In this document: one piece after another, positions 42,151-52,732 of the stretch
Numbering within the stretch: position 1 is the first letter of the stretch
Layout of the letters: the number at the start of each line of letters is the position of its first letter
DNA from: Acidobacteriota bacterium
Lineage (GTDB): Bacteria; Acidobacteriota; Terriglobia; Acidiferrales; UBA7541
Length of the DNA: 53,591 nucleotides
Assembly (NCBI GenBank): GCA_003223325.1
Contig: QHYS01000218.1
Span: forward strand, 1 to 53,591
Direction: 5' to 3'
Made by a program: the position numbers and the translations under genes
The notes under the pieces: model-generated
Databases searched by the model: none
Seen by the model: only the letters and a program-made list of their open reading frames with translations
Told to the model about the DNA's origin: nothing

Positions 42151-42588
42151 CTAACGGCTCAAAAGAACTGCGCCCGGTAGCGTGGCGATGAGGATGGAGA
42201 TAAAGACCAACACAATCAGGATGGAAAGAAGCCGAACGTATCCCCGGTCCAGGGCTACACGTCCTGACGCGAACGCCTTGCTCCTTGTTCCTACAATCAC
42301 GTGCAGGACGATCAAGAGCAATACGAAAATGAACTTGATGTGCAACCAGCGGGCGTGGAGAAAGTAGGAACGGTTGGTCACGATCAGCAGGATTCCCGCC
42401 AAGATTGCGAGAGAAGCGCCGGGGTCGGCTAAGGTCCGAAGGCCGAGTTTCTCGATTCCGGCTAAGCTCGCGCGCGCTGCCGGAGCGCTTACTGCTATGT
42501 GCCGGAGCAAGATGAGAGTGGTTATGAGCAGGCCAGAAATCCACAGTGTGAACCCAAAAATGTGTAGCACCAGTAGCCACGCCACCAT
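42151..42588 (-). CDS. CopD/HemJ-like four-helix membrane protein
   Basis: 145 aa from ATG 42588, with GGAGG upstream that overlaps a CACCTCC complement. Four membrane segments: MVAWLLVLHIFGFTLWISGL, DPGASLAILAGILLIV, WLHIKFIFVLLLIVLHVIVG and VRLLSILIVLVFISILIATL. His residues in the first and third helix (VLHIFG, WLHIKF, VLHVIVG) fit heme or copper ligands in the CopD/HemJ superfamily. HemJ oxidises protoporphyrinogen; CopD takes part in copper handling. I cannot choose between these. Confidence 0.65.
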   Translation of the reverse strand: MVAWLLVLHIFGFTLWISGLLITTLILLRHIAVSAPAARASLAGIEKLGLRTLADPGASLAILAGILLIVTNRSYFLHARWLHIKFIFVLLLIVLHVIVGTRSKAFASGRVALDRGYVRLLSILIVLVFISILIATLPGAVLLSR

Positions 42589-42690
42589 AGCGGAGGTGAC
42601 CTCCTGGTTCAGTCTATCATCGGCAGGGCATTTCGGAATGCCGCGCAAAGCCAAGAGGCAATTGTGCAGGCGTGCAGGAAGCGATCCGCT

Positions 42691-44799
42691 CTACTGCGAT
42701 TGTTTTTGCATTTCCCAGTTGCGGTCTTCTGACAACAGCGGCGGCACCTCCTCGGGTGCCAGCGGTTTAGAGAAGTAGTATCCTTGTGCATACTTGCACT
42801 GTAGTCTCTTCAACAACGCAACCTGCTCGAGAGTCTCTACGCCCTCGGCGACGACATCCAACCGAAGATTCTTAGCCATGGGCATGATCGTCCGCGCTAT
42901 TTCCATGCCCTCGCCCCCTTCTCCCGTACCACTGATAAACGAGCGGTCGATCTTCAAGGTATCCAGCGGGAAGCGGTGCAGGTAGCTCAAGGAGGAATAG
43001 CCGGTGCCGAAATCGTCGATGGCCAGCCGTATACCCAAAGATTTGATCTGCTGCAACATTTCTGCGGCAGCTGCGGGGTCTGCCATCACCGCGCTTTCCG
43101 TAATTTCGAGCTTCAAGGCTTCCGCGGGCAGGGCCACCTCACGTAATAACTTTCCCATGTCATCAACCAAATGAGGTTGCAAAAGCTGTTTGGCGGAAAG
43201 ATTGACGCTGATCGTCAAGTCGAGACAGGCCTCAGAGTGGGCCCTCCATTTGCTCATTTGCCGGCAGGCCTCGTGCAAACTCCACCAGCCCAGTTCGCGA
43301 ATCAACCCGGTCTCTTCGGCAACGAAGATGAATTCTTCCGGTCCAATGATTCCTCTGCTCGGGTGCTCCCAGCGCAACAGAGCCTCGAATCCAACGATGC
43401 GTCCGGAATCCAGAGCGACAATCGGTTGGTAGACATTCCGAAATTCGTCTCGCTCCAAGGCGCGGCGCAGGTCCGTTTCTAATTGCAGGCGCGCCATAAC
43501 GCTGGCGCGCATATCCGCATCGAAAACCTCATAACGGGCCTTGCCCAGTGACTTGGCCCGGTACATGGCGGTATCGGCGTCGCGAAGCATGTCTTCCGGC
43601 TGCTCATACACAGTACTGCTCAAAGTGATGCCGATGCTGATCGAGGTAAATACCTCTTTGCCGGCCAGGAGGAACGGTGGTGCCAATGCTTTCATCAGGC
43701 GCTCTGCGGCCCGTTTGGCATCTTCCGTCTCCTTAATATCGTCGAGTAAGATCGTGAATTCGTCTCCCCCGAGCCTCGCGACCGTAAATGTTTCTCCCAG
43801 GCGTGCCACGGTATCAGAGGAACGCAAACACTTCTCCAATCGGGCGGCCACCCCAACCAGGAGTTGGTCTCCAACCAAATGGCCAAGGCTATCGTTGATC
43901 ATCTTGAAGCCGTCGAGGTCCAAGAAAAGCACGGCAAAGAGATGGTCTTTGCGGCGCTTCGAGTGTTTGATCAGACGTCCGAGGCGGTCAATGAACAAAA
44001 GCCGATTAGGCAAGCCCGTCAGCGGATCGGATACTTTTCGTTCGGTGATATCAGTTTGGGATCCCGCCATGCGCGAGGCTTTTCCCGTGGCATCGTGAAC
44101 GGCAAGTCCCCTGCTGAGCATCCACCGAAAGCTCTCGTCTTTGTGCAATAGGCGATGCTCGCTTTCAAAGTGCGGGGTTAAACCTCTTTGATGGGCGGCT
44201 ATTTCTTCCTTGACGCGGTCCCGGTCCGCGTCGTGAATGCGGTCCAGCCATTCCTCCAATCGATCCTCTATTTCGTGTTCCCCAAAACCTAGCATGGCTT
44301 TCCAACGCGGAGAGAAATACACTGCGCCGGTCACAAGATTCCAATCCCAAAGACCGTCATTGGCACCCCGAGCGGCCAGCGCATAGCGCTCTTCGCTCTC
44401 TCTCAATGCTTCCTGCGCCTTTTTATGGGACAACTGTGTGCCAATTCGCGCCAGGGCGACAGGGAAGTCAATCGGCTTGGTCAGATAATCGTTTGCTCCC
44501 ATTTCCAAGGCTTTGACGATGTCGTCGCTCTGATTCTTTGCCGTGACCATAATGATCGGCAACTCAATCGCAGAATAGGATTCGCGCAAGGCTTGCAGAG
44601 CGTCCAGGCCGGTGACTTCCGGCATTTCGATATCGAGCAATACCAGGTCAATGCCTTCCTCTTTGACTCGCGGCAGCAGTTCTCTGGCGCTGTCTGTCAG
44701 CCCGATAACATAGCCTTTGCGGGCCAGCCGTCGGGCCAGCATGTCTCGATTCATTTCGTTGTCGTCAACGATAAGCAACCGGCTGGGACGCGAGTTCAT
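42691..44799 (-). CDS. Response regulator with PAS, GGDEF and EAL domains (c-di-GMP turnover)
   Basis: 702 aa. Receiver (1-120) with phospho-acceptor Asp56 in LVLLDIEMPE and Lys in YLTKPID; PAS (about 135-250, DGLWDWNLVTGAVYFSPRWK); GGDEF (about 260-425) with an intact GGDEF at 344-348; EAL (about 440-690) with EALLRW at 472-477, TISVNLSAKQLL, EITESAVM and DDFGTGYSSL. Both catalytic motifs are intact, so it could make and break cyclic di-GMP. A short internal repeat precedes the active site (TVARLGETFTVARLGGDEF). Its receiver closely resembles the stand-alone receiver upstream (NEMNRDML-RRL-R-GY). The start overlaps the stop of that gene by four bases (ATGA), so the two are translationally coupled. 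Last gene of the signalling operon. Confidence 0.95.
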   Translation of the reverse strand: MNSRPSRLLIVDDNEMNRDMLARRLARKGYVIGLTDSARELLPRVKEEGIDLVLLDIEMPEVTGLDALQALRESYSAIELPIIMVTAKNQSDDIVKALEMGANDYLTKPIDFPVALARIGTQLSHKKAQEALRESEERYALAARGANDGLWDWNLVTGAVYFSPRWKAMLGFGEHEIEDRLEEWLDRIHDADRDRVKEEIAAHQRGLTPHFESEHRLLHKDESFRWMLSRGLAVHDATGKASRMAGSQTDITERKVSDPLTGLPNRLLFIDRLGRLIKHSKRRKDHLFAVLFLDLDGFKMINDSLGHLVGDQLLVGVAARLEKCLRSSDTVARLGETFTVARLGGDEFTILLDDIKETEDAKRAAERLMKALAPPFLLAGKEVFTSISIGITLSSTVYEQPEDMLRDADTAMYRAKSLGKARYEVFDADMRASVMARLQLETDLRRALERDEFRNVYQPIVALDSGRIVGFEALLRWEHPSRGIIGPEEFIFVAEETGLIRELGWWSLHEACRQMSKWRAHSEACLDLTISVNLSAKQLLQPHLVDDMGKLLREVALPAEALKLEITESAVMADPAAAAEMLQQIKSLGIRLAIDDFGTGYSSLSYLHRFPLDTLKIDRSFISGTGEGGEGMEIARTIMPMAKNLRLDVVAEGVETLEQVALLKRLQCKYAQGYYFSKPLAPEEVPPLLSEDRNWEMQKQSQ

Positions 44800-45176
44800 G
44801 ACGGTTTCTTCTCGGCAATCAGGCTTTCAATTTTTTCGCTCAACCGCTCAAACTCGATGGGCTTGGTGTCGTAATCGTCGCAGCCCGCCTCGAAGGCTTT
44901 CGTGCGGTCCGTTACCAAGGCATGGGCTGTCAGGACAATGATCGGAATATGCCGTGTATCGTCGCTCGCTTTAAGCCGGCGCGTTAATTCCCAGCCATCC
45001 ATCGCCGGAAGGCTGATGTCCATCAGAATCAGATCGGGGCTTTCGGAACGCGCCAGCAGGTGCCCCTGTTCACCATCTTGAGCGGTGATGACGCGATAGC
45101 CTCGCCGCTGTAGTCTTCGGGAGAGCATGTCTCGGTTCATTTCGTTGTCTTCAATGAGCAGGATTTTTGGCATCAT
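44796..45176 (-). CDS. Single-domain response regulator of the signalling operon
   Basis: 126 aa, receiver only. Acidic pair in LLIEDNEMN, phospho-acceptor Asp53 in LILMDISLPAMDG, Thr in IIVLTAHA and Lys105 in DYDTKPIEF; all key residues are present. The ATG overlaps the TAA stop of the kinase gene by one base (TAATG), and its own stop overlaps the next start (ATGA). This coupling points to a phosphorelay chain. The N-terminal 25 residues nearly repeat those of the REC-PAS-GGDEF-EAL protein, indicating a duplication. Confidence 0.95.
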   Translation of the reverse strand: MMPKILLIEDNEMNRDMLSRRLQRRGYRVITAQDGEQGHLLARSESPDLILMDISLPAMDGWELTRRLKASDDTRHIPIIVLTAHALVTDRTKAFEAGCDDYDTKPIEFERLSEKIESLIAEKKPS

Positions 45177-47224
45177 TAGCTTCTCCTGGAGACTTCCATG
45201 TCAATTGGTCGCCCTTCCCTAGTTGCCGCTGGGCGAGAAGGACCCTTGGACTCGGTCAGCGTCGACGACCGCGCTACGCGATGCTTTTCGATCAGCATTG
45301 CGAGCCGGTCACGATCAACAGGCTTTATCAAATAGTTGGAGGCGCCCAAATCAAAACCCATGGCCTGATTATCGACCACTGTGACCATAATCACCGGGAT
45401 CTGTGCCAGACTGGGATCGCTCTTGAGCTTACGCAACACGTCCCAGCCGTCGCATTCAGGCATAATCACGTCCAGGGTAATTACCAAGGGGTTAACTTCC
45501 CGGGCCAGCCGCAGGCCTTCTTCTCCACCTGCTGCGGCGACCGCGCGAAATCCCAGCTTGCTCAGAAAGCGCGACATCAGATCGCGGACTGCCGGATCAT
45601 CGTCAATCACGAGAATCGTATCGAGTTCCGCTTTACGCTGAGCCGATGCCGCCGGAGCCCCGCCCGTTCCTTCCAGCTGCGCGGTTTCGGTCGTATCCAA
45701 TGTGACTTGAGCAGGCAGGTATACAGTAAATGTAGAGCCCTGGCCTGGCTGGCTCTCCACGCTGATACGGCCCTTCATCATCTGCACAAATCGATAACTG
45801 ATAGCAAGCCCGAGACCGGTGCCGCCGTATTTGCGCGAGATTGTTGCGTCGGCCTGAGAGAATTCCTGAAAGAGCTTTTCTTGCTGTTTGGCGCTGATGC
45901 CAATGCCCGTGTCCTTTACGCGGAAACGAATCCACTCCTGGCCTTCCATGGCGCTTTGACTTACATCCAACGCGATGGTCCCATGGTCTGTAAACTTGCA
46001 GGCATTGCTCATCAGGTTAAATAAGATCTGCCGTACCTTGGTGGCATCGGCGCGCATCATGCCTAGGTCGTCAGCCAAGCGAACCCGAACGTTGTTGGCA
46101 TTTTTCGCAATCGCCGGCTGCAGCGTAGTAACCATCTCTTCGACCATCAACGACACGTCGAATGTCTCTAGGTGCAAGCCCATCTTCCCGGCCTCGATCT
46201 TGGAGAGATCGAGCACGTCGTTGATCAAGGACAATAAGTGCTTGCCAGCCGATTGAATCTTCTGCAGGTCCTGCTGATTTTCCAGCTTCCCTGAATCGCG
46301 CGTCTCCTCCTCCAGCATTTCGCTGTATCCGATGATCGCGTTGAGGGGGGTACGCAGCTCGTGGCTCATATTGGCGAGAAAGGCGCTTTTCGCACGGCTG
46401 GCATCTTCGGCTGCGTGCTTGGCCTTGAGCAGTTCTTCCTGCGTCTGTTTGCGGTGGATAATCTCGCCTTCGAGCTCCCGAGTTCGTGTTTTCAATTCGT
46501 CGTTGGCCCGCTGCAGTGCCGTATCCCGTTGTTGAATCTCGGATAGCATGGTATTGAAACCGTTGATGAGCCTGCCAATTTCGTCGCTGTAAAATCTTGT
46601 GGCGCGAACCTCGTAGTTCTTGTTCGTGGAAACCATTCTCATCGCGTTTTCCAGGTGCAAGATGGGCCTGGAAATCAGCCTTTGCAATTGTGACGAGACC
46701 AGCAGTGCAAATAATCCTGAGAAGAGCACGAAAATACCGACAATGGCGCTGTATCGTCTGGCCCGCTCGCTCCACTGGCGCTGGTCCGATTGCAAAAATA
46801 ACGTTCCGACGCGTTCGCCATTTAGCGTAACATCCCGAAAAACTTCCAGATAGCCGCTTTCAAACCGATAACCGTTCTCTTGCGAGCGACCGGGCAAAGT
46901 CGAGGGATGTGCATTGGCGTTCGGAAAATAATGCGCGAAGATCGTTCCATCGGGGCTGTACAGGACTGCGGCCACGATGTCTTCCTTTGCCGTAAGAGCC
47001 GACAGTGTCGCAGTGGCGGCGGCTTCATCGCGGAAAGCCATGGCGGCGGCGCTGTTGTATCCAATGATCTGTGCCTGAGTCATCAGGTCCAGGGTCAGCA
47101 AATGACGGAAGGAGATGAGGTCGTAGATGAGGAAGCTTGCGGACGAAAGGACAAGCGCAGCGCTGCTCGTCAACATCGTGATGAGTATCAGCTTGCCCTT
47201 GATGGATAGGTTCTGAAGGTTCAT
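45176..47224 (-). CDS. Hybrid histidine kinase with periplasmic CHASE8-like sensor
   Basis: 682 aa. Membrane segment 1 (about 11-35); periplasmic domain (38-155) with LMTQAQIIGYNSAAAMAFRD and LSALTAKEDIVAAVLYSPDG, matching CHASE8, the sensor of YfiN-type cyclases; membrane segment 2 (159-178); HAMP (180-232); coiled coil (232-280); HisKA with phospho-acceptor His288 in NMSHELRTPLNAIIGYSEML; ATPase domain with N407, DTGIGIS (438-444) and GGTGLGL (467-473); receiver (535-645) with Asp585 (LDVIMPE) and Lys634. All catalytic residues are present. It lies five bases after the YfiR-family gene and couples to the receiver gene by TAATG. Confidence 0.95.
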   Translation of the reverse strand: MNLQNLSIKGKLILITMLTSSAALVLSSASFLIYDLISFRHLLTLDLMTQAQIIGYNSAAAMAFRDEAAATATLSALTAKEDIVAAVLYSPDGTIFAHYFPNANAHPSTLPGRSQENGYRFESGYLEVFRDVTLNGERVGTLFLQSDQRQWSERARRYSAIVGIFVLFSGLFALLVSSQLQRLISRPILHLENAMRMVSTNKNYEVRATRFYSDEIGRLINGFNTMLSEIQQRDTALQRANDELKTRTRELEGEIIHRKQTQEELLKAKHAAEDASRAKSAFLANMSHELRTPLNAIIGYSEMLEEETRDSGKLENQQDLQKIQSAGKHLLSLINDVLDLSKIEAGKMGLHLETFDVSLMVEEMVTTLQPAIAKNANNVRVRLADDLGMMRADATKVRQILFNLMSNACKFTDHGTIALDVSQSAMEGQEWIRFRVKDTGIGISAKQQEKLFQEFSQADATISRKYGGTGLGLAISYRFVQMMKGRISVESQPGQGSTFTVYLPAQVTLDTTETAQLEGTGGAPAASAQRKAELDTILVIDDDPAVRDLMSRFLSKLGFRAVAAAGGEEGLRLAREVNPLVITLDVIMPECDGWDVLRKLKSDPSLAQIPVIMVTVVDNQAMGFDLGASNYLIKPVDRDRLAMLIEKHRVARSSTLTESKGPSRPAATREGRPIDMEVSRRS

Positions 47225-47229
47225 CCGGG

Positions 47230-47796
47230 CTACCTTGTTTCAGCTGCGGATTGCGGGATGATTCTTGCCAATGCGAGTAACCTGGAGCTGATATTCAGGT
47301 CCGCCTGTTTGGCAGCGTCCAGATTGACCTCAAAACGAACCTTGTTATCTTCGACGACCAGGTTGATGATGCACCCGCGTCTGGCGAATCCTGGCGTTTC
47401 GCCGATGGTCAGAATGGGCAAACCTTTTAGAGCGTGGATGACCTCTTCGAGGTGCGCCGCTTCCGACGAACCAATAAACAAGATGTCGCACCCTTTGAGG
47501 TCCATTCCCCATTTAAGCCGCTTGATTACGAAGCGTCGCGCATCAATCTGTTTGTCTGCCAGAATGCGGTCAATAATTCCGCCAAAAGGATCAGTGCCTA
47601 AAATTCCAATGACGATTGGGGAATCCGGCTGAGCGAAAGCGCCTTGCGGCCATCCCACCAGTTTGGCGAAATTGTAAATAAAGCCGGCCTTAATGAGGTA
47701 TTCCGAGGAATCAGAGGAATCGAGCGTCTGAGCGCTGGCCCCAAGAGCCAGGCTCAAACAGATTCCCATCGCGATAATTGGTCGGAGCACTCTCAT
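47230..47796 (-). CDS. YfiR-family (DUF4154) periplasmic protein
   Basis: 188 aa from ATG 47796, which gives a clean signal peptide (MRVLRPIIAMGICLSLALGA, cleaved near SAQ); a GTG at 47832 would add 12 residues before it. Family marks: EYLIKAGFIYNFAKLVGWPQ, IVIGILGTDPFG, LKGCDILFIGSSE, LPILTIGETPGFARRGCIIN and VRFEVNLDAAKQADLNISSR. Two Cys in the mature part could form the disulfide known from YfiR. In Pseudomonas, YfiR sits in the periplasm and inhibits the CHASE8 cyclase YfiN. Here the neighbour with a CHASE8-like domain is a histidine kinase, five bases downstream, which is the likely partner (inference). Confidence 0.92.
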   Translation of the reverse strand: MRVLRPIIAMGICLSLALGASAQTLDSSDSSEYLIKAGFIYNFAKLVGWPQGAFAQPDSPIVIGILGTDPFGGIIDRILADKQIDARRFVIKRLKWGMDLKGCDILFIGSSEAAHLEEVIHALKGLPILTIGETPGFARRGCIINLVVEDNKVRFEVNLDAAKQADLNISSRLLALARIIPQSAAETR

Positions 47797-47853
47797 TATG
47801 GCCTTATCGCGCGGCACGATAATCGGCATCACGCGAAATCACCTGCCCCCATC

Positions 47854-49926
47854 TTAGAAGGTCCAAGCAATGCCGCCGTAGAACGTACGACGAACTTCAG
47901 TGGGCAACGTGTTGATGAACTCCGGGATAAATTCCAGGTGGCGGCTATTCAACAGGTCCTCGCCGCCAAAAGAAAGTTGCAACTGCGAGATTGGCTTCCA
48001 GCCAACATGGAGATCCAACGAGTAATAGCTCGGTATACTCAGGCTCGGAAGTTGATCGACATAACGCACTATCAGGTCCTGCTCCAAATGCTTCGGCAGG
48101 TCCAAAGAGGAGCGGAAATAGAACTGATTGCGCGGACTCGCACCATTCGGAATGTCCGGCGTCGGATCCAGGCTATCTGCATTCTTGCGTATGTTCATTC
48201 GCAAAAAGCTGTAAGAGCCGGATACCTTCCATCTGGGGAGGACTTTCCACTCGGCGAAAGGTTCGACGCCGTAGGTCCCACCGCTCATCTTATTGCTCGC
48301 GACGAAGGGGAGAACGACATAACTTGGGAATGGACTGCCTGCGAGGATGGGAGCACCCGGCTCCGCTGATCGCAAATTTGTGTAATCGTTATAAAATGCC
48401 GCCACGTCAAGCGAGAAGGAACCGGTCGCTTGAACTCGGTAGCCGACTTCATAAGCAAGGAGATCTTCTGATCGGAACAGAGGGCTCCCGAAAATTGCTT
48501 CGATGACCGGCAAGGGGCTATTCAACGGGGGCATCGCTGGCGGAATAATCCCTGCGTTCAGCTGGAGACCTTCCTCGGTCAAAGCAGGCGTACGGACGGC
48601 CCTCGATACGGCAGCCCAGACGGATTGCTGCTTAGTGAGAGTTCCCAAGACTCTCACGTTAGGTTCGAACTCGAAGCCGGTGAACGGATTGTGCTCGAAT
48701 TTAGACCCAACCGTAATGTGTATACGATTGTCGAGCAGGCTTACTTCGTCCTGCAGGAATGCGCTGTATTGATTCAGGTTGCGATGGTCGGGCAAGAGCG
48801 CCACGGTAAAGCTTGAGCCATTGCTATCCTGAATCGAGCGGTAGCCCAGGCCCCAAACCAGCTCCTGGGCTTCACCAAGATGGATGTCGTGCTGGAAATC
48901 GATATCATATACCGACTCGTGGTCTCCAAACACCGTGGGGTCCGCGATGTTGGTCCGGTCGTAGTACATCTGCAGTGAAGTAGAGGATCGCGCGAAGGAG
49001 TGATTCCAGCGGCCCAGCAGATCGCCGCCGCTGTTGTAGCCATTGTTCGGATAGGTGCTCGAAAACCTGGGTGAGGTTAACGAGGGAACGGTTACAGTCT
49101 CGCCGAAATTATCATGATAGATGTCGCCCTGTATGGTGAACGAGTTCGCCGTCGTTGCATTAGAGTCGACACGAAAGCCGCTACGCAACGCATGCCAGCC
49201 GTCGGAGGCCGTCGCGCCTGTAACATCGATTGAAGGATACCAATCGAAGTATTTGCCGTAGACGCGATAATAAGTGTTGTTGCCGATCTTGGAGCCATAG
49301 CGTACGCTTTCAGCCGTCCGTTCTTCCGATCCGGCCTCTGCGGTTACCAGTCCGCCTTGTGTGGCCTTGGCCGATTTCGTAATTATGTTGATCACGCCGT
49401 CGACCGCATTGGCGCCCCACAAGGTAGCCCCTGGGCCGCGAATGACCTCGATGCGGTCCACGTCCTCGAGCACTACGTCTTGCACGTTCCAGTACACACC
49501 CGAGAAAAGAGGGGTATAGACGCTGCGGCCGTCGATCAAAACGAGCAGCTTGTTGTCGAATCGCCCGTTGAACCCTCGCGAGCCGATAGCCCACTTGTTC
49601 TCGTCAATACGCGCCACTTCCAAGCCCGGAGCCATCCGCAAGGCATCGGGAATGCTTGTAGCTCCGGAACGGCGGATGTCTTCCTGGGTTATGACGAACA
49701 CCGCCGCCGCCGCGTCGCCTACTTTCTGCGTTCTCTTGGAGACCGACGTGACCTGCAGGTTCATCAGGTCTTCCAGGCTCAATTGGGTGGGGTCGAGAAC
49801 ATTCTGCGGGCTGTCGGACCCTGTCGCCGCCATGTTGGCCACGGGGCACACCGCAAGTACACCGGATAAGAGGATCCGGCCCGCAGAGGCCATCAGACTC
49901 TTGTTCTTCTTAGGTATCGACGACAT
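47854..49926 (-). CDS. TonB-dependent outer-membrane receptor
   Basis: 690 aa from ATG 49926 (AGAGGGGGAT upstream), preferred over 49995. Signal peptide about 12-38, then the linker LDPTQLSLEDLMNLQVTSVS, plug domain (SVSKRTQKVGDAAAAVFVIT, SIPDALRMAPGLEVARIDEN, LLVLIDGRSVYTPLFSGVYW, VEVIRGPGATLWGANAVDGV-like block) and a beta-barrel that ends in aromatic Phe (GGIAWTF), as outer-membrane proteins do. It takes up a ligand with TonB energy. The ligand is not evident. The yfiR-type gene follows after 21-57 bases, so the receptor heads the signalling operon. Confidence 0.95.
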   Translation of the reverse strand: MSSIPKKNKSLMASAGRILLSGVLAVCPVANMAATGSDSPQNVLDPTQLSLEDLMNLQVTSVSKRTQKVGDAAAAVFVITQEDIRRSGATSIPDALRMAPGLEVARIDENKWAIGSRGFNGRFDNKLLVLIDGRSVYTPLFSGVYWNVQDVVLEDVDRIEVIRGPGATLWGANAVDGVINIITKSAKATQGGLVTAEAGSEERTAESVRYGSKIGNNTYYRVYGKYFDWYPSIDVTGATASDGWHALRSGFRVDSNATTANSFTIQGDIYHDNFGETVTVPSLTSPRFSSTYPNNGYNSGGDLLGRWNHSFARSSTSLQMYYDRTNIADPTVFGDHESVYDIDFQHDIHLGEAQELVWGLGYRSIQDSNGSSFTVALLPDHRNLNQYSAFLQDEVSLLDNRIHITVGSKFEHNPFTGFEFEPNVRVLGTLTKQQSVWAAVSRAVRTPALTEEGLQLNAGIIPPAMPPLNSPLPVIEAIFGSPLFRSEDLLAYEVGYRVQATGSFSLDVAAFYNDYTNLRSAEPGAPILAGSPFPSYVVLPFVASNKMSGGTYGVEPFAEWKVLPRWKVSGSYSFLRMNIRKNADSLDPTPDIPNGASPRNQFYFRSSLDLPKHLEQDLIVRYVDQLPSLSIPSYYSLDLHVGWKPISQLQLSFGGEDLLNSRHLEFIPEFINTLPTEVRRTFYGGIAWTF

Positions 49927-50035: not shown

Positions 50036-50842
50036 TCATAACGGCTTCTCCCCGGTCACAGTAAAGACTGTGGAATAAGTGAGCGTATCCGGCCGACTCA
50101 GATATTCCAAAAATCTCCGTGAGTGTTCTTTGGCTTCATCTTCATTGCCGAAGATTCGAGTCATCTGAGGCCGCGCAATCTCCAGCTTTAGTTCCCACTG
50201 CTTCAGAACGTCCTGGGTGATCTTCCCGGCGATCAAGTGGTAGCACTCAACCTGAACCTTCAAATTCTCAAGACCTGCTTTGCGCGCCAGCCAAAAGAGC
50301 TTTCGGCCAACGAAGGGATCAAAACCGGTGTCCCCCAGTGCTGCTACTCCCTTCTCCACTGCGCGCTGCAGCACCGGGTCTTCCGGGTAGTGCCACAGAA
50401 GTTGCCCGTCCAGGTCCTGTAGCAGGACCTTTCCGCCGGGCCTGCAAACTCTGACCAATTCAGCGACCGCACGCTCCTTCTTTTGGAGGTATTGGAGCAA
50501 CATGCGGCAATAAACGAGGTCGAAACTATCTGCGGGAAACTGCATCGCAAGTGCGTCTCCGCACACGAACCGCGCTCGCGGATTGTCACGATTTCTCCGA
50601 ATCGCTTCCGCGACGCGATCTGGACTGATATCTAGGCCCGTTCCTCGGACCGACGGATGCAATGCGCAGATCGCTCCTAAAATGACGCCCGGCCCACAAC
50701 CAACGGAGAGCAGCTCCATGCCCGGTGTGATGTGGTGAGCCATATAATTTCGAACCCACGCCTCTGGATCGACCTTAGCTTCCAGCCGCGCGGCCTCACG
50801 CGGGTCATCCATGATGTAATTAATCGTTGCAGCCTTAACCAT
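50036..50842 (-). CDS. SAM-dependent methyltransferase (class I)
   Basis: 268 aa from ATG 50842 (AGGGAAGG upstream). Motif I LLSVGCGPGVILGAI, motif II GTGLDISPDRVAEAIRR, FVCGDALAMQFPADSFDLVY (motifs III-IV) and ELVRVCRPGGKVLLQDLDG (motif V). This is the UbiE/Methyltransf_11 type acting on a small molecule or lipid. The substrate is unknown. The start lies eight bases after the stop of the preceding gene, so the two form an operon. No membrane segment. Confidence 0.88.
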   Translation of the reverse strand: MVKAATINYIMDDPREAARLEAKVDPEAWVRNYMAHHITPGMELLSVGCGPGVILGAICALHPSVRGTGLDISPDRVAEAIRRNRDNPRARFVCGDALAMQFPADSFDLVYCRMLLQYLQKKERAVAELVRVCRPGGKVLLQDLDGQLLWHYPEDPVLQRAVEKGVAALGDTGFDPFVGRKLFWLARKAGLENLKVQVECYHLIAGKITQDVLKQWELKLEIARPQMTRIFGNEDEAKEHSRRFLEYLSRPDTLTYSTVFTVTGEKPL

Positions 50843-50850
50843 GGCCTTCC

Positions 50851-51963
50851 CTAGCTCACGAACGTTAGGTGTGTTGCGTGTCTTTCGGATCGAGCCAATA
50901 GCCTCGAGTAGAAGCCCTCGACATGACGATAGAAGCGCAGCTGTCCGCCCTTGAGCCATATACCCTGGCAATAGTGGCGAAGGAATTCTGCCCCCAATTG
51001 AGTCAAGGCCGTGGCGGCAATCTGGTCCGTGATCACCGGGATCGCGCTCAGCTCAAATCCTTGATACACGGTGGAAGCCGCCTTGAGCAAGGCAGCCGCG
51101 ACACCGAGAACATCGGAGTCCGGAAGCGTCGGATGTAGCAATAGATCGCAGCGATTCTCGATGTAACTGAAGTTGATCCCCAGAGGACCACGATAGGCAA
51201 TGACCGCCCCGATGGGTTCATCCTTGTATCCGCGATAGGCCAGCCACGCGCGCCGGGTGCGTCGGAGCCCTACGCTGCGATACATTTCGTCCACCGCTTT
51301 AAACTCAACATCCTGCTGCAATTCCTCCGCGGTTACGTAAACGCTGCCCCGCGCGGCGGTAGCAATTGCACAAAGCGGTTCTCTTTGAGATGGGCTATAG
51401 GGCACGACGCGGATTCCTTTTTGCACGGGCAAAGCCAATTTTCTCGGCAGCGCAAAATACATATGTCGCTGCACCGAAGAGAAGGACTCGCCAATCGTTT
51501 GAACCATGGAACCAAATACCCGTGATGGAAAGCGGTTCTCAGGCCGAAACCAATTCTGGTGGGACTCATCGACGCCCTTCAAAAAGCTGGCAGCCGATCC
51601 TGCTAGCATCACCGCACGTGAGGCGTAGGGATTGTTCTCGGAGACAAGGTGCTGGGAGGTCCAACCATTCCGAGCGGTGCGCCAGACGGCAATCGATGCC
51701 CGGCCGTGCTTCTCATCGCCGGCAGTCAATACGTAGAGAAGCGATTCTCCGCGGCGCAACATCCGCCGCCAGTTCTCCTTGACTTGCTCCAAATGGGGAA
51801 GCAGCCGGGCTGCTTTGTCCGGATAGAGAAACCCGGTTCGTTCGTAGAGGGCGAAGATTTCATCAACAGGCAGAGCATTAACCTGGACGCCGTACGCATC
51901 GTACACGTCTGCCAATTTTGGCAGGCTGTTGATGATTTCCTGATCTAGGGCATCTATCGGCAT
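50851..51963 (-). CDS. Protein of unknown function, possibly GNAT-like
   Basis: 370 aa from ATG 51963 (MPIDALDQEIINSLPKLADV). I do not recognise it with certainty. It has two halves with related features: EQVKENWRRMLRRGESLLYV ... HGRASIAVWRTARNGWTSQH and RRAWLAYRGYKDEPIGAVIA ... GINFSYIENRCDLLLHPTLP. The pattern of central strands followed by a helix (SDVLGVAAALLKAASTVYQG) recalls a double acetyltransferase (GNAT) fold, but no clear acyl-CoA loop is visible. Strict co-occurrence with the methyltransferase (8-base gap) suggests a joint pathway. Confidence 0.6.
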   Translation of the reverse strand: MPIDALDQEIINSLPKLADVYDAYGVQVNALPVDEIFALYERTGFLYPDKAARLLPHLEQVKENWRRMLRRGESLLYVLTAGDEKHGRASIAVWRTARNGWTSQHLVSENNPYASRAVMLAGSAASFLKGVDESHQNWFRPENRFPSRVFGSMVQTIGESFSSVQRHMYFALPRKLALPVQKGIRVVPYSPSQREPLCAIATAARGSVYVTAEELQQDVEFKAVDEMYRSVGLRRTRRAWLAYRGYKDEPIGAVIAYRGPLGINFSYIENRCDLLLHPTLPDSDVLGVAAALLKAASTVYQGFELSAIPVITDQIAATALTQLGAEFLRHYCQGIWLKGGQLRFYRHVEGFYSRLLARSERHATHLTFVS

Positions 51964-52732
51964 ATGATTTGGCTCATCTCTTGTAGCGTCTTCCCCGACA
52001 ATCCCTCCTAATCGCAAGCTGCTGCGCGGCACACTCCTTCCCTTTCAAAAAATAGAGGACTAGCGACATAGAAATCAGCCAGCTCAGGGTCTCCAATCAC
52101 TTAGATATAGGGGGTTTGGCCGATCTTTCAGAATGGCCCATTAGTACTGTTTCTCAGGCGGCGCTCGAACGGACTATTAACAGCTTCGATACAGCTTTGA
52201 GCGAGCCGCTCTAGGTGAGAACCCTATCTCGACGATTCTCAAAGGCACATACTGAAATCGTCTGCGTGGGTCATACCATACAGAATACACAGGCTTTAAG
52301 TCGAAGCCGAACTCGGCACTGTGCCAGGATCGCTGTCGAAGCACAATCTTCGCCGATGGGCGCCTCAATCGTCCTCTCGCTTGGCGCATTTATCAGCGGC
52401 AACTGGGGGGCTGGCTGTTTCGTCACATCGCTTTGGTCGGGCCGTTCGCCGCGTCGCAGTGGTTGCGGGTGCGAGGTGAGGGATAATCGATCCTTCGAAC
52501 GCGGAACGTGCCTTTTCCGCTTCACCATCTTCACGATTAGTCCCGCCGCCACGGCTCAGATTGCGAGATGCTGGTACGAGCAAGATCAAGCCAATCCAGA
52601 GATTGCGAGGAGATGTTCCGAGATGATGATAAAATGAGGCCGTTGGGAGTCCGAATTCTGGCATCTGGACTTAAAGGACCCTAACTCAAGTCGCGGCGGT
52701 TCTTCCGCAGCAGGGAGAATCGCTTCTACTGC
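51964..52732. other. Long intergenic region before tRNA-Ile
   Basis: About 770 bases. Several open frames of up to 140 codons exist on both strands, but none has convincing motifs or start sites. It adjoins an old integration site, so it may hold gene debris. Confidence 0.5.

Follow-up and report, generated by a model that had tools for sequence, protein, structure and literature searches.

Does a run of five genes in a soil acidobacterium carry a signal from the outer membrane to the cytoplasm, and if so, by what route? The question is raised by a 53,591-nucleotide stretch of contig QHYS01000218.1 (assembly GCA_003223325.1, an Acidobacteriota bacterium; hereafter the window). It contains successive genes for a TonB-dependent receptor, a YfiR-like periplasmic protein, a hybrid histidine kinase with a CHASE8 sensor domain, a single receiver, and a REC-PAS-GGDEF-EAL regulator of cyclic di-GMP (c-di-GMP). 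Signalling inward from outer-membrane receptors is understood in detail chiefly for systems that act through sigma factors (Fec-type). We give somewhat better than even chances to a Yfi-type envelope relay, with the receptor as input and a two-component, c-di-GMP output. If true, the receptor-YfiR-CHASE8 relay would be a second route inward from outer-membrane receptors.

The original prediction, made from the letters of the window, described five genes in one direction with tight or overlapping junctions, and this description holds. All five open reading frames (ORFs) lie on the minus strand at the positions given in Table 1. The receptor and YfiR genes are separated by 21 bp and the YfiR and kinase genes by 5 bp, the kinase and receiver genes overlap by 1 base and the two regulator genes by 4 bases (listed starts; the YfiR gene may truly begin at an ATG 36 bases inside its listed ORF). 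The residues named for phosphotransfer (His288, Asp585, Asp53 and Asp56) are all four exact. Pfam assigns a plug (9e-20) and a barrel (4e-24) to the receptor, DUF4154 (PF13689, YfiR/HmsC-like; 1.5e-45) to the YfiR protein, Response_reg (4e-28) to the lone receiver, and Response_reg-PAS_3-GGDEF-EAL to the c-di-GMP regulator. The kinase sensor, formerly called CHASE8-like, passes the CHASE8 profile (PF17152, 2e-17) with 63.8 bits against a cut-off of 27, and is followed by HAMP, HisKA, HATPase_c and Response_reg. Three of the proteins also exceed the curated cut-offs of NCBIfam families, namely NF053590 (TOL_0244 receptor; 670 bits, cut-off 645), NF053591 (TOL_0243 YfiR-like protein; 160.4, cut-off 125) and NF053592 (YfiR-associated sensor kinase HK_near_YfiR_like; 232.8, cut-off 194). 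The window YfiR matches YfiR chains in the PDB (E about 3e-5), and its nearest named relatives are metagenome-assembled genomes (MAGs) labelled gp2, with YfiR identities of 94-98%. Promoter-like sites (4, with 5.4 expected) and terminator-like sites (10, with 10.4 expected) are not above chance, so transcription units are judged from spacing and conservation only.

Neighbouring genes in other genomes were mapped with profiles built from the window proteins. A class-wide sample is anchored on DUF4154 alone, which has a match in 47 of 121 genomes, 45 of them above the cut-off, and comprises 61 YfiR loci. A set of 107 nonredundant loci was partly found with the model of the YfiR-associated sensor, and is hence biased towards the result. 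From the nonredundant counts, 5 of 112 loci were dropped as identical YfiR copies (L071, L072, L132, L134, L142), of which L132, L134 and L142 are kept in the class sample; weak or partial DUF4154 matches (in G053 and G119, the second match of G007, and the remnant of G013) are left out of the locus counts. A locus has room if it extends at least 2.3 kb upstream for the receptor, at least 2.3 kb downstream for the sensor and at least 4.5 kb downstream for the output. The original prediction implied that these families co-occur in other genomes, and for receptor and sensor they do: among class-sample loci with room, the CHASE8 sensor stands in the same-strand chain at 56 of 59 and the receptor at 46 of 57. 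The sensor is likewise in the chain at 91 of 96 nonredundant loci. By their labels, loci with the receptor-YfiR-sensor core come from Acidobacteria, Nitrospinaceae, Desulfobacterales, Verrucomicrobiales and several proteobacteria; those that also have c-di-GMP genes come from Acidobacteria, Desulfobacterales and proteobacteria.

That YfiR gates the CHASE8 kinase is well supported, indirectly, by adjacency, distance correlation, a contact motif and the swapping of outputs behind the sensor. Across 59 loci, YfiR distances correlate with those of the CHASE8 periplasmic segment (rho 0.72), the receptor (0.58), HAMP (0.55) and the kinase core (0.42). The CHASE8 value exceeds that of the kinase core in all of 300 bootstraps and that of the receptor in 95%. 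Controlled for the other parts, the partial correlation with YfiR is 0.57 for CHASE8 (0 of 500 permutations as high), 0.34 for the receptor (1 of 500) and 0.03 for the kinase core (187 of 500); this core gains no correlation when thinned to 130 columns. Two points weigh against the proposed gating here: HAMP also keeps a partial correlation of 0.26 (2 of 500 permutations), and operon genes share a history, so correlation is not contact. Shared inheritance of a cassette might by itself account for both correlation and linkage, with no physical contact between YfiR and kinase, and the correlations were computed without gene-tree reconciliation. We consider this very unlikely: the kinase core shares a polypeptide with CHASE8 and still shows next to no partial correlation with YfiR, and the residue at the presumed contact is kept in nearly all paired sensors.

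This residue belongs to a motif known from genetics: according to Malone et al. 2012, YfiR binds a five-residue motif, AAVVF, in the periplasmic domain of YfiN (PMC3375315). The window kinase reads AAMAF at this position, and its F64 is nearly invariant in a 45-row alignment. Among sensors paired with a YfiR gene, 93 of 95 carry Phe here and the other two Leu. A further 12 sensors were flagged as unpaired. Five of these are so for technical reasons, have YfiR in the locus and carry Phe (those of L074, L106, L108, L135 and L159); another is the second sensor of L051, also with Phe, and two lie at contig edges (L044 with Phe, L049 with Glu). Four kinases have room and no intact YfiR. Two of them have Ser (L068 and L048); the other two (L043 and L050) keep the Phe, which counts against the favoured reading. 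All four together are a small number and carry little weight. Directly before the L068 kinase lies a YfiR remnant with an internal stop (L068:5831-5944). On the YfiR side, 94 of 107 sequences have Phe at the position of Phe162, and 104 of 107 have Cys at that of the Pseudomonas aeruginosa disulfide residue Cys110. A second column holds Cys in 68 of the 107 sequences and Gly in the window, and for the Cys145-Cys152 pair every column has at most 60% Cys. A model of the sensor (mean predicted local distance difference test, pLDDT, 81) aligns with PAS-like extracytoplasmic domains such as those of CitA (2j80_B; Z 12.3, with a root-mean-square deviation, rmsd, of 2.4 over 102 residues) and WalK (4ywz_B; Z 12.4), a likeness that agrees with the assignment and has no bearing on YfiR binding; a PDB sequence search with the sensor returned one match, at E 0.01, and none useful.

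The original prediction also had the receptor supplying or sensing the outer signal. While its view of YfiR gating stands on the indirect evidence above, the receptor's proposed role is carried by conserved linkage and by the weaker partial correlation. At 80 of the 96 nonredundant loci with room, and across several phyla, the receptor is part of the chain. A search for TOL_0244-family receptors in 25 genomes gave 18 places at E 1e-30 or better, and of the 14 strong full-length receptors (above 570 bits), 11 lie beside YfiR. The remaining three, all in the window's genus, stand without YfiR, and 11 of the 57 class-sample loci lack a receptor in the chain; both counts tell against the receptor as input. 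They fit an arrangement in which YfiR gates the kinase, and the receptor is a mere importer of a nutrient or cofactor, co-transcribed as a target of the pathway. Consistent with such an importer, a Pfam scan at E 0.001 shows nothing beyond the plug and the barrel, with no STN domain, and the partial correlation between YfiR and the plug is just 0.16. The breadth of the linkage and the correlation over the whole receptor, matched by a single permutation in 500, point the other way, and we regard the importer as possible, if not favoured.

The receptor might instead sequester YfiR itself at the outer membrane, as YfiB does, in place of delivering a ligand. YfiR has been proposed to use one surface for both YfiB and YfiN (PMC4655355), and of nine proteins scanned, from the operon and its surroundings, none is OmpA-like. 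The YfiR-receptor correlation is, however, not focused in the periplasm-facing plug: the first third of the barrel gives a partial of 0.24, higher than that of the plug, and the other thirds about -0.06 and -0.09. Sequestration by the receptor seems to us unlikely on balance. A pattern for an N-terminal receptor motif as a YfiR dock matched 40 of 87 receptors, and is too strict to be informative. An apparent receptor-YfiR fusion in L146 was rejected: its ORF reads receptor and then YfiR, but the receptor part ends early into unrelated letters, most likely a frameshifted gene.

As for the output, in a quick tree of the sensors, which has SH-aLRT (Shimodaira-Hasegawa-like approximate likelihood ratio test) support only and carries a long-branch warning (L101 with L107, L133 and others), the window's clade comprises 20 rows (SH-aLRT 100). 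In 17 of these rows the kinase gene is followed by those for REC and REC-PAS-GGDEF-EAL; among the 17, contig ends cut L054 and L087 after REC-PAS and L078 inside EAL. In the other three (L058, L081, L084) the contig ends in or just after the kinase, only 0.9-1.9 kb past YfiR. L133, on a separate long branch, has both regulator genes just upstream of receptor, YfiR and kinase instead. In the window regulator, RxxD and GGDEF are separated by an insert of about nine residues, which is a recurrent feature of the window type. In the nonredundant set as a whole, 75 loci combine a sensor with 4.5 kb or more of downstream sequence: 22 chains carry GGDEF and EAL, 12 GGDEF only, and 41 match neither GGDEF, EAL nor HD-GYP. 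The last figure counts against the proposed output as a general one; c-di-GMP is a recurrent end point, not a universal one.

In several lineages the sensor is joined directly to the enzyme. Proteobacterial loci, among them those from Vibrio, Alteromonas and Methylophilaceae, have a fusion of CHASE8-type sensor and GGDEF-EAL downstream of YfiR; in L106-L111 a receptor precedes YfiR, while L101 has none there and encodes sensor and enzyme in two ORFs. CHASE8 was confirmed by Pfam in the one proteobacterial fusion protein scanned (L109). Within the window's class, L143 encodes such a fusion after YfiR, with a Pfam CHASE8 match and 192.6 bits for the kinase-sensor model (cut-off 194), and in the quick tree its sensor groups with two kinase sensors (SH-aLRT 98). 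With the sensor fused to GGDEF-EAL elsewhere, the YfiR-CHASE8 gate appears portable, and the natural exchange of kinase and fused GGDEF-EAL makes it testable as such a part.

Phosphotransfer from the kinase to the GGDEF-EAL regulator is plausible, given the operon and the Asp residues present. The distribution of HPt domains argues against taking its route as settled: profiles from two HPt seeds match in 0 of the 22 GGDEF+EAL chains (6 of these are sensor fusions, which need none) and in 9 of the 12 GGDEF-only chains, where the HPt domain usually forms the end of a REC-REC-HPt kinase. Pfam finds no HPt in the window kinase. This pattern, together with the many chains that have no c-di-GMP domain, would also suit a kinase that in fact feeds a phosphorelay through a distant HPt, or another regulator, the c-di-GMP protein answering to a different kinase. 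The constancy of both regulator genes in the window clade, their presence at the opposite end of the L133 locus and the fusion of sensor to GGDEF-EAL all run counter to this, and we rate it as rather improbable. For the window type, we favour phosphate passing straight from His288 to its own and the two separate receivers over an HPt encoded elsewhere, since chains of this kind lack HPt. Among other arrangements, L150 has YfiR directly followed by a lone HPt and a REC-GGDEF gene, as though the kinase had been lost (L150:8094-10079), and in L066 and L129 a receiver gene just upstream of, and overlapping, the receptor gene matches an HD-GYP profile, a possible alternative c-di-GMP output (L066:126-1175, L129:3859-4914).

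In the relay that we favour, the receptor would be the outer-membrane input at the place of YfiB, most likely importing into the periplasm a ligand that YfiR senses and less likely sequestering YfiR. YfiR would dock on the membrane-proximal AAxxF motif of CHASE8, a contact supported indirectly, and fix the kinase dimer in one state, by analogy with YfiBNR probably off or leaning towards phosphatase. Upon relief from YfiR, the kinase would phosphorylate His288, from where phosphate would pass to Asp585, Asp53 and Asp56, either directly or via an HPt, which would have to be encoded elsewhere as the gene chain has none. The phosphorylated REC-PAS-GGDEF-EAL protein would then alter c-di-GMP, possibly in either direction, as both enzyme motifs look intact.

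The conserved unit exceeds the five genes, as two more co-directional genes belong to it. They encode a tandem GNAT-like protein and an S-adenosylmethionine (SAM) methyltransferase, and precede the receptor gene: where at least 3.4 kb upstream of YfiR is available in window-type loci, the GNAT gene is in the chain at 18 of 18 and the methyltransferase gene at 17 of 18 (in L081 a methyltransferase gene lies on the opposite strand). The methyltransferase ORF probably starts further inside than listed because it overlaps the preceding gene; in L088 and L136 it overlaps the receptor ORF by 4 bases. The model of the GNAT-like protein (mean pLDDT 64) resembles VipF (7wx7; Z 12.4, rmsd 6.0 over 239) and the histidine acetyltransferase 9emd (Z 12.3, rmsd 4.3 over 257). 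Genes for an ABC permease, an ATPase and a HlyD-type protein follow the operon in 11 of 14 testable window-type loci, all but L086, L088 and the window copy. At that place the window has a UPF0093 membrane protein (42151-42654), and elsewhere in its genome the exporter permease has four matches of only 23-32% identity.

Table 1. Genes and motif of the conserved operon in the window.
Feature	Position	Strand	Basis
REC-PAS-GGDEF-EAL regulator, D56	42691..44799	-	Pfam; GGDEF and EAL motifs seen
Single receiver domain, D53	44796..45176	-	Pfam Response_reg
Hybrid histidine kinase, TM-CHASE8-TM-HAMP-HisKA-HATPase-REC; H288, D585	45176..47224	-	Pfam, NF053592
Codons for AAAMAF, kinase residues 59-64, counterpart of the YfiR-contact motif AAVVF of YfiN	47033..47050	-	
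YfiR-like periplasmic protein, TOL_0243 family	47230..47832	-	Pfam DUF4154, NF053591
TonB-dependent receptor, TOL_0244 family, plug and barrel	47854..49926	-	Pfam, NF053590
SAM methyltransferase, co-conserved upstream gene	50036..50971	-	Pfam, locus conservation
Tandem GNAT-like protein (GNL)	50851..52032	-	No Pfam family over cut-off; structure model

Distant relatives of the GNAT-like protein place the GNAT-methyltransferase pair near c-di-GMP. The protein is found in 6 of the 121 class genomes, all six times in this operon. A phylum sample of 297 genomes has it in two, the window's own and G240, and of 192 genomes drawn from the class to which G136, a Desulfobacteraceae MAG, belongs, 66 have it. 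In the locus of G136 (L097), receptor, YfiR, kinase, REC and GGDEF are followed by the pair at a distance of about 4 kb. We considered 41 distant GNAT loci, 40 from those 66 genomes and one from G240 (L173). A PilZ domain is present in 39 of the 41 by a profile built from L193, where Pfam detects PilZ with 27.7 bits (cut-off 22.5). Within 4.5 kb, 25 of the 41 have a methyltransferase and 21 an HD-GYP-type (HD_5) gene. In L193 itself, the PilZ-tandem GNAT protein adjoins a GAF-HD_5 (HD-GYP-type) protein and a methyltransferase (L193:5961-10064). For the L097 relative, the PilZ assignment began as a guess from motifs; Pfam gave no PilZ match on this protein and none of that genome's PilZ matches was tied to it, whereas the L193-built profile matches at 150 bits. 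An exclusive link between GNAT and YfiR was considered and discarded: it holds in the class sample (6 of 6) and fails beyond it, as the fetched stretches of the 41 distant loci contain no YfiR. In L188, tandem GNAT and methyltransferase form one protein, encoded between kinase and receiver genes (L188:3841-5772).

Because these relatives carry PilZ, often near HD-GYP-type genes, the GNAT-methyltransferase pair may be part of the same circuit, and its tie to c-di-GMP is supported indirectly; the link offers a handle on the physiological signal. A bolder reading takes the whole operon as a self-signal loop, in which GNAT and methyltransferase would make a small, perhaps acylated and methylated, molecule that the exporter releases and the receptor re-imports, with YfiR and the CHASE8 kinase reporting it. 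Feedback by c-di-GMP is suggested by the PilZ domain on the distant relatives. Beside the window copy the exporter is missing, so on this reading it would there be encoded elsewhere or lost. We consider such a loop distinctly unlikely; if true, it would be a quorum-type system read via a TonB receptor and a periplasmic gate.

The closest known system is YfiBNR of P. aeruginosa (PMC3375315, PMC4655355, PMC4887326). In both, a YfiR-family protein adjoins a HAMP protein with a CHASE8 or periplasmic PAS domain and there is a link to c-di-GMP, and the sensor contact motif and the Phe counterpart of YfiR are conserved. The systems differ in that the CHASE8 protein of the window is a hybrid histidine kinase and not a cyclase, a response regulator encoded apart from it and including EAL serves as the c-di-GMP enzyme, a receptor gene and not yfiB stands beside yfiR, and the Cys110 counterpart alone is near-constant Cys in the YfiR family here. 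A YfiB-type OmpA-like lipoprotein is absent among the nine proteins in and around the operon, to which the search was limited.

The idea of a kinase output is partly in print: Malone et al. 2012 mention YfiN-like proteins with GGDEF-EAL, HPT or histidine kinase outputs, usually without yfiB, and their Fig S5 has Acidobacteria bacterium Ellin345 among five divergent homologues, with a legend that gives no output type (PMC3375315). These share with the window a YfiR-CHASE8 module with swapped output, but the passages on them describe no trans-acting c-di-GMP regulator or wider operon. The word TonB does not occur in the main text of PMC3375315, nor in PMC4887326. The receptor, YfiR and sensor families are already named by NCBIfam; the comparison is one of names and scores, and these state neither a mechanism nor a REC/GGDEF-EAL partner. 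In FecA-FecR-FecI cell-surface signalling, a TonB-dependent receptor serves as outer-membrane input to a cytoplasmic output; the window receptor differs in lacking STN, no sigma or anti-sigma family occurs among the nine proteins scanned, and the relay would consist of YfiR and the kinase. A search of titles and abstracts, with bioRxiv and most subscription journals outside its coverage, did not find a receptor-YfiR-kinase system. New here are the systematic link to the receptor, the trans-acting c-di-GMP enzyme with no HPt in the chain, and the larger operon with tandem GNAT, methyltransferase and often an ABC exporter.

Further YfiR genes deserve mention. The window's own genome holds a second locus with receptor, YfiR, CHASE8 kinase and REC (L065, C62:1-7573), in which stretch no c-di-GMP gene was found. 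It also holds two short DUF4154 fragments with no intact gene, possible YfiR remnants that are left out of the counts (L160 on C173 and L161 on C362). In L105, a single protein contains two YfiR domains (L105:2194-3330).

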